Below are positions 1-5,169 of a stretch of 38,461 nucleotides of DNA, piece after piece; within the stretch, counting starts at the first letter, position 1, and every line of letters begins with the position of its first letter. Under the pieces are notes generated by a model, which ran no database searches, was not told where the DNA came from, and saw only the letters and a program-made list of their open reading frames with translations. The stretch spans positions 1-38,461 of IMG/VR virus record IMGVR_UViG_3300020281_000056; one strand, written 5' to 3'. The position numbers were made by a program, and so were the translations under genes. The DNA comes from a virus.

Positions 1-1062
1 GGCTATGATGAAAACAATACACCTATACTAATAGGTAGATTTATAGATTATTCAAATACAAAAATTATTTCTATAGAAGATTTAGAAAAAATTAAGACAC
101 AAGAATATGAGCCAGAGAGTAGATGGTCTGAGTATCCACCTTGCGTGCAAAGCATGATTAATGAAAAATGGTCAGGTAACCACCGAAATGATTTGCTGTT
201 TAATATTGGTGTGATGGAGATGAAGAAAGCTGATGGAGAACTATCAAAAAAAGAATTACTAGAGATATTGGTAGATAGAAATAAACAAGTGTTTACTAAA
301 CCACTTACAGTGCAAGAAATTAAAAGCACCATACTAAATTCATTATCCAAAAAAAATTATACTTTGAAATGTATGACTCCACTATGTTCTAAAGATAAAT
401 GTAAAAATAGATCATTAGGTATAGGCACTCAACCACCTGATATATTAGAGGACTTCTCTGAAATAACATTTGTGCAGGATACAAAGTCCATGCATTATAC
501 TTTTAAATTTCAAGATAAGTATATTACAGTAACACCTGAAGACATGAAGGATGAGAAGTCTTGGAGAGTAAAACTTTTAAAATATAAAATTTTTTGGAGA
601 ACATTACCAAAACCAAAGACGGGCCCATCACCATTTGAAATGTTATTATATGAGTTAGTACAAAGGGCAGAAGAAGATACTAATTTAAAATTTGAAGATA
701 CTATGGCTGAAGAGAAGTATAGAATATTAAAAGGATTCTTTGAGGACCACATTGAAGAAGATGATTATGAAAAACTTAAAGACGATTATGTTATTTTAGA
801 TTCTAAAACAAATCTCTGTTATTTTAAAAAAGCAACATTAGAAAGTTATTTAAATTCTAGAAAAAGAATTTTCAACACTACCACAGAGGCTATTAGATTT
901 TTAGGCTGCCAAAGGCATGACTATTACGAAGGTGAACAAAATGTATGGTATGTCAAACTACCGACTTTTGCAGAGCACAGAAAAGAAAAACCACCGGTCA
1001 AAGTAGATAACAAACCATCAGAGCTTGATGATGAATTTCATACCGGCAAATTTAAAACCTGA
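1..1062 (+). CDS. DNA primase (PrimPol-type), C-terminal part, 5' truncated
   Basis: The frame is open from the first base to the TGA at 1060-1062 (353 residues), so the gene starts outside the window; a GTG at 145 lies inside a conserved motif and is not the start. The visible part carries PPC (Cys48), an N-rich GNHRND segment, then Cys124-x4-Cys129-x4-Cys134 followed by RSLGIG. A PPC motif, a helical stretch and a Cys cluster is the pattern of the iron-sulfur domain of archaeo-eukaryotic primase large subunits, and a similar block follows the PrimPol domain in many marine phage primases. Role: primer synthesis for phage replication, next to a helicase and polymerase. The catalytic PrimPol domain is not visible here. 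The primase assignment comes from motif memory; the Fe-S reading is inference. Confidence 0.6.
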   Translation, partial: GYDENNTPILIGRFIDYSNTKIISIEDLEKIKTQEYEPESRWSEYPPCVQSMINEKWSGNHRNDLLFNIGVMEMKKADGELSKKELLEILVDRNKQVFTKPLTVQEIKSTILNSLSKKNYTLKCMTPLCSKDKCKNRSLGIGTQPPDILEDFSEITFVQDTKSMHYTFKFQDKYITVTPEDMKDEKSWRVKLLKYKIFWRTLPKPKTGPSPFEMLLYELVQRAEEDTNLKFEDTMAEEKYRILKGFFEDHIEEDDYEKLKDDYVILDSKTNLCYFKKATLESYLNSRKRIFNTTTEAIRFLGCQRHDYYEGEQNVWYVKLPTFAEHRKEKPPVKVDNKPSELDDEFHTGKFKT

Positions 1063-1553
1063 TGACCCAACAGAAACAATTTAATCTTTTGCACACTAAA
1101 AAGATTTTAAAAATGAAATGGATTAGAACACCAAAAGAAATATGGAGCGCACTGTCTAAAGAATTTAATTTCACTGTGGATGCATGTGCCTCAGACAAAA
1201 ATCATTTAGTAGATAAATATTGGACTAAAGAACTAGATGCACGTAAACAAAATTGGAATGGTGAAACTGTTTACTGTCACCCCATGTTTGATTACACGAT
1301 ACCAAGCTTTATTAAAAAGGCTTGTGAGTCTAAGTGCACTGCAGTATTTTTATTACCCGCATCGACTAATTCTGTTTATTTCCATACTTACCTTTGGGAT
1401 AATAAAAAACATAAACCAAAAAATAATATAGAGATAAGATTTATTGAAAAGACAAAAGGTTTATATGGCACTAAATTTTTTAGTGAGGATAATCAAGAAC
1501 CTAAAACTGGATATTTAAGACCTTTGATGATAGTGGTAATTAAGAATGGATAA
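1062..1553 (+). CDS. Phage N6-adenine DNA methyltransferase-like protein, diverged catalytic motif
   Basis: This 163-residue protein has the layout of the phage Dam-like family: an N-terminal WIRTPKEIW block (residues 20-28), FTVDACAS (38-44), a short linker and Trp-Asn-Gly before motif IV, then a FLLPAST strand and a C-terminal PLMIVV strand. It would methylate adenine in DNA. In the usual family the catalytic motif IV reads [DN]PPY; here the aligned position reads HPMF (residues 73-76, bases 1278-1289), so the catalytic Asp/Asn is replaced by His. Similar IHPLFD forms occur in other phages as I recall them, so this may be a diverged subfamily rather than a dead gene. The start overlaps the primase stop by one base (TGATG). 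Confidence 0.7.
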   Translation: MTQQKQFNLLHTKKILKMKWIRTPKEIWSALSKEFNFTVDACASDKNHLVDKYWTKELDARKQNWNGETVYCHPMFDYTIPSFIKKACESKCTAVFLLPASTNSVYFHTYLWDNKKHKPKNNIEIRFIEKTKGLYGTKFFSEDNQEPKTGYLRPLMIVVIKNG

Positions 1554-3703: not shown

Positions 3704-4644
3704 AAACTTTAGACTTATTTAGTGGCATTGGTGGATTTTCTTTAGGGTTAGAGAGAGCAGGTTTTGAAACGGTTGCTTTTTGTGAGATAGATAAATATTG
3801 TCAGAAAGTGATTAAAAAATTTTGGGATAAAAAAATTTATAACGATGTCAAAGAAATCACAAAACAAAAACTTAAATCAGATGGAATTGAGTTTCCCGAA
3901 ATTATCACAGGTGGCTTCCCCTGCCAGCCGTTCAGTATTGCAGGAGCAAGAAAAGGGACAGACGACAACAGACATCTCTGGCCAGAAATGTTTCGCATCA
4001 TCAAAGAGTTTAAGCCGAGGTGGGTTATTGGAGAAAATGTGCGAGGTATTATTAATATCCAAGACGGCATGGTATTCGAAAATGTGTGCACTGACTTGGA
4101 AGGAGAAGGTTACGAAGTCAGGGCGTTCAATATTCCAGCTGCAGCTGTTGGTGCCCCGCACAAAAGAGAGAGAATCTGGATTGTGGCGAACGCCAGACGC
4201 AGCATCAGGGGGGAGCAATCTTCCAGGAATAAAGAAAGCGCTAGATCAGGGACATATGAAAAGACCGAGTGGTCATGCAATACATCTAAGATTAGAGGAT
4301 CAAGTGAGAGAACCAAGACTATGGCCAACGCCAACATCAACGGAACGGAGCGGAATCAATCCGAAGACAGGGAGAGGAGCCGGACTCAGCAAAGCAGTCA
4401 AGATGTGGCCAACGCCAGTACAGGACGACGTACATTACAGGAAAAACAAATATCAACAAGGGGGGACAGCTCTAAGCACCAAAGCTGGTGGGAAGCTGAA
4501 CCCAACGTGGGTAGAGTGGCTGATGGGTTACCCGGCAGAATATACAGACTTAGAGCATTGGGAAACTCTATTGTCCCACAAATCGCAGAAGAAATCGGTA
4601 AAGCTATAATGATAGCAGAGCAGGAGATACATGGATCCAAATAG
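3700..4644 (+). CDS. DNA cytosine-5 methyltransferase
   Basis: Transfers a methyl group from AdoMet to C5 of cytosine, probably protecting phage DNA from host restriction. Motifs in order: motif I LDLFSGIGGFSLGLERAGF (residues 4-22), the catalytic loop GGFPCQPFS with Cys75, ENV at 112-114 (motif VI), HKRERIW at 154-160 (motif VIII), and the C-terminal ALGNSIVPQ (motif X) ending near residue 302. The 314 residues are normal for a small phage enzyme. The target-recognition region (about 165-265) is unusually hydrophilic and Ser/Arg/Glu rich, and the DNA there carries a second long frame (separate entry). Start ATG 3700 overlaps the upstream stop. Confidence 0.95.
   Translation: MKTLDLFSGIGGFSLGLERAGFETVAFCEIDKYCQKVIKKFWDKKIYNDVKEITKQKLKSDGIEFPEIITGGFPCQPFSIAGARKGTDDNRHLWPEMFRIIKEFKPRWVIGENVRGIINIQDGMVFENVCTDLEGEGYEVRAFNIPAAAVGAPHKRERIWIVANARRSIRGEQSSRNKESARSGTYEKTEWSCNTSKIRGSSERTKTMANANINGTERNQSEDRERSRTQQSSQDVANASTGRRTLQEKQISTRGDSSKHQSWWEAEPNVGRVADGLPGRIYRLRALGNSIVPQIAEEIGKAIMIAEQEIHGSK
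3845..4609 (+). CDS. Second reading frame inside the cytosine methyltransferase gene
   Basis: A 254-codon open frame on the same strand as the methyltransferase, shifted by one base. It does not read like random shadow: it has three LW(R/P)TP or MWPTP motifs, FQLQLLVPRTKERESGLW, and near the end GGKLNPTWVEWLMGYPAEYTDLE. The same bases encode VGRVADGLPGR and VANA-type motifs in the methyltransferase frame. I recall the WPTP and NP-WVEWLMGFP-GWT motifs from proteins annotated in other phages and Bacteroides, so both frames appear conserved. No clear ribosome site precedes 3845; expression could be by internal start or frameshift. Translation is not shown; the alternative is that the motifs are forced by the main frame. 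Confidence 0.4.
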   Translation: MSKKSQNKNLNQMELSFPKLSQVASPASRSVLQEQEKGQTTTDISGQKCFASSKSLSRGGLLEKMCEVLLISKTAWYSKMCALTWKEKVTKSGRSIFQLQLLVPRTKERESGLWRTPDAASGGSNLPGIKKALDQGHMKRPSGHAIHLRLEDQVREPRLWPTPTSTERSGINPKTGRGAGLSKAVKMWPTPVQDDVHYRKNKYQQGGTALSTKAGGKLNPTWVEWLMGYPAEYTDLEHWETLLSHKSQKKSVKL

Positions 4645-4717
4645 ATTTGAATTGTATTTATACTTAGGATTTTTTGTTACTGTGTTTATGTTGCTTTATG
4701 CATATTTATTTATATGA
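4631..4717 (+). CDS. 28-residue single-span membrane microprotein
   Basis: ATG 4631 to TGA 4715-4717, with AGGAG 5 to 9 bases upstream, a good ribosome site. After a short polar start (MDPNRFE) the rest is one hydrophobic segment (LYLYLGFFVTVFMLLYAYLF), so it would be a single transmembrane helix. It overlaps the methyltransferase end by 14 bases and the next gene by 4 (ATGA). Both the ribosome site and coupling support it; no function is known. Confidence 0.5.
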   Translation: MDPNRFELYLYLGFFVTVFMLLYAYLFI

Positions 4718-5169
4718 AAATAAAACCTACTACACTTAGGTTTGCAAATGAATATGTTAAACAGAATCATAGGCACAGTAAAATTGTACAAGGTTGTAAA
4801 TTTTGTATAGCTGCAATTGATGCAAAAGAAACTATTTTAGGAGTGGCAATAGTAGGTAGACCCGTATCTAGAAGATTAGATGATGGATATACTGCAGAGA
4901 TAGTTAGAACTTGCACAACAGGCACTAAGAATGTAAACAGTTTACTATATGGAGCTTGCGCTAGAATTTGGAAAGAAATGGGTGGGACTAAAATTTTGAC
5001 TTACACATTAGAGACAGAGACAGGGATAAGCTTAAGAGCAGCTGGTTACATACACTCAGGCACAACGCAATCTTTCTCGGAAGGTAAAGGTTGGACCACT
5101 CGCAAAGGTAGAGAGTGGCAACCTAAAGTACACTCTTTACAAAAGTTTAGATGGGAGAGATCTTTATGA
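4714..5169 (+). CDS. XF1762-family, GNAT acetyltransferase-like protein
   Basis: A 151-residue protein with the features I associate with the XF1762 family: an N-terminal NEYVKQNHRHSKIVQGCKF block, ILGVAIVGRPVSRRLDDGYTAEIVRTC, LLYGACARIWKEMGGTKILTYTL, and SLRAAGYIH. The order (His pair, GVAIVGRPVSR strand, LLYGAC helix) fits an acetyltransferase-like fold. In phages it sits in replication and DNA-modification modules, and relatives have been discussed as modifying enzymes; the substrate is unknown. It is coupled to both neighbours by ATGA overlaps, between two DNA methyltransferases and the polymerase, so a nucleic-acid-related role is a reasonable inference. Confidence 0.75.
   Translation: MKIKPTTLRFANEYVKQNHRHSKIVQGCKFCIAAIDAKETILGVAIVGRPVSRRLDDGYTAEIVRTCTTGTKNVNSLLYGACARIWKEMGGTKILTYTLETETGISLRAAGYIHSGTTQSFSEGKGWTTRKGREWQPKVHSLQKFRWERSL

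Follow-up and report, generated by a model that had tools for sequence, protein, structure and literature searches.

Can one stretch of DNA carry both the catalytic and the site-choosing part of a cytosine methyltransferase, each in a reading frame of its own? The question is raised by a locus in the virus record IMGVR_UViG_3300020281_000056, whose full 38,461 nucleotides are referred to here as the window. At this locus, an open reading frame (beta) lies inside the gene for a C5-cytosine methyltransferase (alpha), on the same strand and shifted by one base (frame +1). The sequence-only reading had placed a 254-codon frame at 3845-4609 within a 314-codon methyltransferase gene, one base out of register and sharing its DNA with motifs of the main frame, and both the coordinates and the motif pairs are exact (Table 1). 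VANA, MANA and VANA of the alpha frame start at 4183, 4321 and 4405; WRTP, WPTP and WPTP of the beta frame start at 4184, 4322 and 4406. Likewise, NPTWVEWLMGYP (4499-4534) overlies the same DNA as EPNVGRVADGLPG of the other frame. Alpha has the C5-methyltransferase motifs I-VIII, including the catalytic PCQ (IV) and ENV (VI), as recognized by PF00145 and by alignment with M.HhaI, and in the window motif X is C-terminal in this same polypeptide. A conserved target-recognition domain (TRD) and motif IX are absent from alpha, frame 0 over the modules being no more conserved than the non-coding frame.

Table 1. Coordinates of the nested methyltransferase locus and its context in the window
Feature	Position	Strand	Basis
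Alpha, C5-cytosine methyltransferase catalytic subunit, 314 aa	3700..4644	+	PF00145 E=1.4e-54; TIGR00675 6.1e-47; PHROG_363 2.8e-83; M.HhaI over residues 2-163
Beta, nested +1-frame protein, 254 aa, proposed target-recognition subunit	3845..4609	+	PHROG_1008 6.8e-27; 107 phage records; 80 bacterial loci
Beta start codon (inferred)	3845..3847	+	homologous ATGs in relatives preceded by AAGGAG-type Shine-Dalgarno sites
Beta N-terminal region over alpha motifs IV-VIII, includes LTWKEKVTKSGRSIFQLQ (predicted beta hairpin)	3848..4183	+	zero +1 stops in 81 genes; 4-fold-site conservation
Alpha motif IV, GGFPCQPFS (catalytic PCQ)	3910..3936	+	sequence; M.HhaI alignment
Alpha motif VIII, GAPHKRERIW	4150..4179	+	sequence; M.HhaI alignment
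Beta module 1 (WRTPDAASGGSNLP...LEDQVREP)	4184..4315	+	module cluster, 146 copies, ordinal positions 1-6
Beta module 2 (WPTPTSTERSGINPKTGRGAGLSKAV)	4322..4399	+	8 copies, ordinal positions 2-6
Beta module 3 (WPTPVQDDVHYRKNKYQQGGTALSTKAGGK)	4406..4495	+	23 copies, ordinal positions 1-5
Alpha linker opposite beta modules: open, S/E/R/G/T/N-rich, amino acids unconstrained	4183..4500	+	window modules vs 32 loci
Beta LNPTWVEWLMGYP, motif IX equivalent by position	4496..4534	+	hhalign to fused-enzyme segment preceding motif X
Alpha motif X region, RLRALGNSIVPQ; constraint on both frames	4546..4581	+	substitution pattern
Dam-type adenine methyltransferase (context)	1062..1553	+	PF05869 2.8e-16
Mom-like DNA modification protein (context), 69 bp downstream of alpha	4714..5169	+	PHROG_1384 2.3e-31

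The distribution of substitutions can reveal which of the two frames selection acts on. We tallied substitutions at each codon position of frame 0 (given as 1/2/3), using ungapped alignments, with IMG/VR loci gathered by each frame separately; locus pairs are not independent, and the figures are effect sizes with bootstrap over loci, not P values. In the phage loci, the part preceding the overlap displays the pattern of a coding frame 0 (.211/.122/.418), the module region displays that of a coding +1 frame (.397/.173/.091), and downstream of the +1 stop the frame-0 pattern resumes. Independent bacterial loci follow the same frame-by-region pattern. Taken locus by locus, 136 of 137 are +1-like over the modules and 0 of 151 over motifs IV-VIII. 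The window's own modules, set against 32 loci, give.405/.184/.086, with amino acid identities of 0.51 in frame 0, 0.79 in +1 and 0.53 in +2. Judged by these patterns, selection follows the alpha frame in the part before the overlap and over motifs IV-VIII, and the beta frame over the WPTP modules.

The stretch that holds NPTWVEW and motif X is slow at all codon positions in the phage loci (.219/.079/.150). Only in this stretch (NPTWVEWLMGYP and motif X) and, more weakly, over motifs IV-VIII do the substitutions point at true two-way constraint. The earlier suggestion that one piece of DNA carries two conserved proteins is borne out there, and in weaker form over motifs IV-VIII, but not over the WPTP modules, where amino acid identity among the phage loci is 0.82 in +1 vs 0.52 in frame 0 and 0.55 in the non-coding frame. 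Dual coding calls for selection on both frames, and this is what the comparative tests indicate; evidence for expression is indirect only, consisting of an internal Shine-Dalgarno site and ATG. As far as comparison can settle the matter, the substitution pattern is the decisive evidence for a coding second frame.

Beta proteins consist of an N-terminal region, repeated modules beginning with W(P/R)TP, and LNPxWVEWLMG(Y/F)P, in this order. From 157 beta proteins we collected 476 modules, 1-7 per protein and with a median length of 38 residues. Within this set, the same module families recur at different ordinal positions, and the modules keep phase in all 4,199 HSPs. The comparison shows a shuffling of cassettes among beta proteins, and such module exchange would conserve both frames of the overlap. 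For the window's beta there was no Pfam match and no PDB match by sequence. The AlphaFold2 model of this protein alone is poor (pLDDT 61, pTM 0.30), with pLDDT of 83-91 at residues 81-100, and a search of the PDB by fold returned no match with a model too poor to use.

A clue to the role of the modules comes from relatives drawn from actinobacteria and their phages, in which a single ORF holds, in order, motifs I-VIII, LPTP modules, an EWMMG-type segment and motif X (GNGV). Examples are Gordonia phage Jabberwocky gp4, Mycobacterium phage Shauna1 gp67 and a Tsukamurella plasmid. By hhalign, the stretch immediately preceding motif X in these fused enzymes corresponds to the beta profile (prob 96.6, E=5.8e-10, only 22 columns), and a predicted model of a fused enzyme (pTM 0.74) matches M.HhaI from one end to the other (Z 23.2 over 252 residues). 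From the fused order, the profile match and the model match, we infer that the modules and LNPxWVEWLMG occupy the place of the TRD and motif IX of C5-methyltransferases. The small-subunit motif is equivalent to IX by position and by profile to the fused enzymes, not by sequence to canonical IX: two hhalign comparisons and a PSSM scan did not link LNPxWVEWLMG to canonical motif IX at a significant level, and a sequence identity of LNPTWVEWLMGYP with it was dropped.

Further relatives display other divisions of the same parts. A Bacillota locus (L248, 2763-4062) has an AquI-like division: alpha extends barely beyond motif VIII, and modules, IX-like segment and X are all in +1. The alpha linker seems to be needed only to reach X, because alpha of this locus stops where X has moved to the beta frame. 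Two fused actinophage enzymes (L250, L251) have a stranded +1 LPTP module between motif VIII and the in-frame modules, where it is read as linker; such stranded modules indicate that frame changes have moved modules between arrangements, in one direction or the other. A Streptomyces platensis plasmid (L162, 1291-2262) mixes the frames in another way: its LLPTP modules are in +1, and frame 0 provides EWMMG segment and motif X. In a Chloroflexota locus (L230, 2294-3377), alpha, modules and motif X are each in a different frame; this locus looks degenerate and is probably a pseudogene or an assembly error.

We propose, with good confidence, that the locus encodes a two-polypeptide C5-methyltransferase from one dual-coded gene, with catalysis assigned to alpha and site choice to beta; no protein, ribosome-profiling or methylation data for this family were available. 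Alpha (frame 0) would provide motifs I-VIII (SAM binding, catalysis), a variable linker and then motif X. Beta (+1), started within the alpha gene, would provide its N-terminal region, the WPTP modules and, in the place of motif IX, LNPTWVEWLMGYP. The modules, 35-45 residues each, would act as interchangeable target-recognition cassettes. In the assembled enzyme, alpha would flip and methylate the cytosine at a site picked by beta, and multiple modules would confer multiple target sites, which would protect the phage DNA from several restriction enzymes. The assembly, the choice of site by the modules, multispecificity, action in trans and the anti-restriction role are all inferred. The Dam-type and Mom-like genes are apparently part of a DNA-protection group, and their presence would fit a role in keeping the phage DNA safe from restriction. 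A DNA polymerase gene also lies on the Mom-like gene's side, placing alpha just before the Mom-like protein and the DNA polymerase.

A regulator, a target-recognition partner and an anti-restriction protein had all been suggested for the second frame. The target-recognition partner is the best supported of the three, because fused relatives carry the modules between motifs VIII and X. Overprinted viral genes are often functionally unrelated, the N-terminal region of beta has no counterpart in standard C5-methyltransferases, and the lack of Pfam and PDB sequence matches would also suit an independent protein, an anti-restriction factor or regulator that only shares the methyltransferase DNA. 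We nevertheless consider such independence unlikely. The same modules and EWMMG segment are integral to the single-ORF methyltransferases, a conserved TRD is missing from alpha itself, and no intact beta was found apart from alpha in the loci checked; the sole locus without the alpha N-terminal part (L247, the ninetieth) looks like a remnant.

In the bacterial loci, the third bases of 4-fold sites have an identity of.25-.35 ahead of the beta start,.66 at the start and.41-.66 after it. Synonymous-site constraint in the overlap, the absence of which would have spoken against a second gene, is strong and has its onset at the beta start codon. An AAGGAG-type Shine-Dalgarno site with an in-frame internal ATG is present in 62 of 88 genes (28.4 expected, maximum of 39 in 200 shuffles), and in many Clostridia the distance between the two is almost constant. 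Comparison of these genes supports a start of its own for beta in the relatives. No clear Shine-Dalgarno site is recognizable upstream of the ATG at 3845 in the window, so initiation at this position is inferred from relatives.

Programmed ribosomal frameshifting from alpha near motif VIII could dispense with such a start and yield one catalytic-plus-TRD polypeptide, and the single-ORF fused enzymes indicate that a contiguous polypeptide of I-VIII, modules and IX is viable. However, +1 is open and synonymously constrained for ~100 codons upstream of motif VIII, which a shift at that point would not need, and the internal Shine-Dalgarno site and ATG are conserved. The shifted product would moreover be without motif X, which remains in frame 0 in nearly all loci. 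Fusion by frameshifting is disfavored by the upstream +1 constraint and the internal Shine-Dalgarno site, and we regard it as very improbable.

In 160 homologous loci, +1 is open over almost the entire overlap, ~200-530 codons where the genes are complete, as it is in IMG/VR loci retrieved via the main frame alone, and frame +2 is never open for more than 99 codons. Openness alone is weak evidence, since +1 stays open in ~16% of cases after within-gene permutation of synonymous codons and since seven C5-methyltransferases outside the family have +1 open runs of 34-168 codons. Stops in the second frame of most homologues would have refuted a coding role; across 81 non-redundant genes there are none, neither over motifs IV-VIII (9,033 codons; 129 expected under within-gene synonymous permutation, 759 from family codon usage) nor over the module part (12,070 codons). 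Given the +1 protein, frame 0 in these genes also has zero stops over the modules, where 441 or 1125 would be expected, and stops in frame +2 are about as frequent as expected under within-gene permutation. The absence of stops in either frame, set against the expected counts, indicates that reading of both frames is selected. It follows that translation of alpha has to continue across a region in which its amino acids are of no consequence, presumably so that motif X is reached. The long +1 open runs (up to 168 codons) in some outside C5-methyltransferases speak for a second frame that is a mere by-product of codon usage or of strong alpha amino acid conservation, without a product, but we give this reading virtually no credence. 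In the module region it is +1 and not alpha that is conserved; the substitution pattern, stop counts and 4-fold sites, the latter two deviating strongly, rule out such an origin, and independent annotators have called the +1 ORF a gene. Runs of 144-168 codons were seen in L299, L300, L301 and L304, C5-methyltransferases outside the family from Firmicutes phages or plasmids.

Two-polypeptide C5-methyltransferases and tandem TRDs are each known already. M.EcoHK31I of E. coli HK31 (YGGCCR) is composed of two polypeptides, the large subunit with motifs I-VIII and X and the small one with IX (PMC3404938). The arrangement in the window would fit this, with I-VIII and X on alpha and, in the +1 frame, a segment that is equivalent to IX by position and by profile to fused enzymes but not by sequence to canonical IX. 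The subunits of M.EcoHK31I reportedly have 309 and 176 aa, the small gene lying inside the large one in a different frame. Its TRD has been reported in the large subunit, whereas the conserved variable modules here belong to the nested subunit, with no constraint on the TRD region of the large one. M.EcoHK31I may be a one-module member of the nested-gene family, homology with its beta subunit being untested; a search for it via E. coli genomes gave only other, prophage-borne members or no match. M.AquI (CYCGRG) is a two-polypeptide C5-methyltransferase split within the variable region, and active C5-methyltransferases have been reassembled from fragments (PMC3404938). The small subunit of M.AquI holds the distal variable region and motifs IX-X, whereas the window keeps X on alpha; IX and X together on the small subunit are found in L161 and L248.

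Multispecific phage C5-methyltransferases (SPR, phi3T, rho11, H2) have several tandem target-recognizing domains of tens of residues on one catalytic core. Beta proteins share with them several exchangeable modules in the TRD position (1-7 per protein, in shuffled order). In contrast, the TRDs of SPR, phi3T, rho11 and H2 belong to the polypeptide and frame of the core, and those proposed here are in +1 on a separate polypeptide; TRDs and core share a polypeptide in the fused actinophage relatives, not in the nested loci. Jabberwocky gp4 and Shauna1 gp67 have the same order of motifs and modules as alpha plus beta but all in one frame, and in both a stranded +1 module persists behind motif VIII. 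No earlier description of the alpha/beta overlap was found in the open-access literature. As far as the searchable literature shows, the combination, in which a nested +1 protein bears the TRD cassettes, is new, and so is its wide occurrence.

A tblastn search with beta returned 107 phage records, 85 of them covering at least 80% of beta, from Paenibacillus, Klebsiella, Escherichia, Salmonella, Lacticaseibacillus, Vibrio and other phages. This spread, and the match of the +1 protein to PHROG_1008 independently of alpha's PHROG_363, puts the second frame beyond chance. Scanning genomes with the beta alignment recovered 80 bacterial loci, in Bacillota, Bacteroidota, Chlorobiota, Acidobacteriota, several classes of Proteobacteria and Desulfobacterota, Verrucomicrobiota, Synergistota, Nitrospirota, Chloroflexota, Planctomycetota, Neomarinimicrobiota, Chitinispirillales and Coriobacteriia. 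Besides phages, roughly a dozen bacterial phyla have the alpha/beta pair. In 82 of 89 classified records, which include phage and plasmid records besides bacterial loci, a single ORF holds motifs I-VIII and X, and +1 holds the beta motif. The remaining records are actinobacterial forms that are split or fused (L161, L162, L166), a short form from Leptospira with no motif X detected (L167), a locus with X in frame 0 but in a separate ORF (L180), L248, and the broken L230. With little more than even confidence, we suggest that these are among the most widespread same-strand dual-coded genes, with a nested specificity subunit whose cassettes are exchanged in phase, multispecificity gained by shuffling, and a partner frame that is merely kept readable. 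They would offer a testable case of how a long same-strand overlap is maintained, with one frame held for its sequence and the other only for openness.

Depositors have annotated the two frames in differing ways. Phage Bloom is annotated with two overlapping 'DNA cytosine methyltransferase' genes (the +1 ORF being BLOOM_57), R9.1 with the main frame only, and Salmonella W5_chr3 with the second frame only, called 'Mte8-like'. PHROG_1008 (beta) and PHROG_363 (alpha) are catalogued as two separate 'DNA methyltransferase' families, with no mention that they share DNA. If our proposal is true, a large class of methyltransferases is half annotated, as pipelines keep one frame, label the other hypothetical or mark the gene as broken; alpha expressed alone would be a dead or unspecific enzyme, and specificity would have to be read from beta. 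E. coli prophages also carry the nested gene. In one of them (L306, 3489-4658), RefSeq marks alpha as two incomplete pseudogene pieces; its frame 0 is open throughout and its +1 frame has four modules. One uncultured Roseovarius chromosome (OX638333.1) harbors five near-identical copies of the nested gene (L217-L221), which suggests repeated related prophages.
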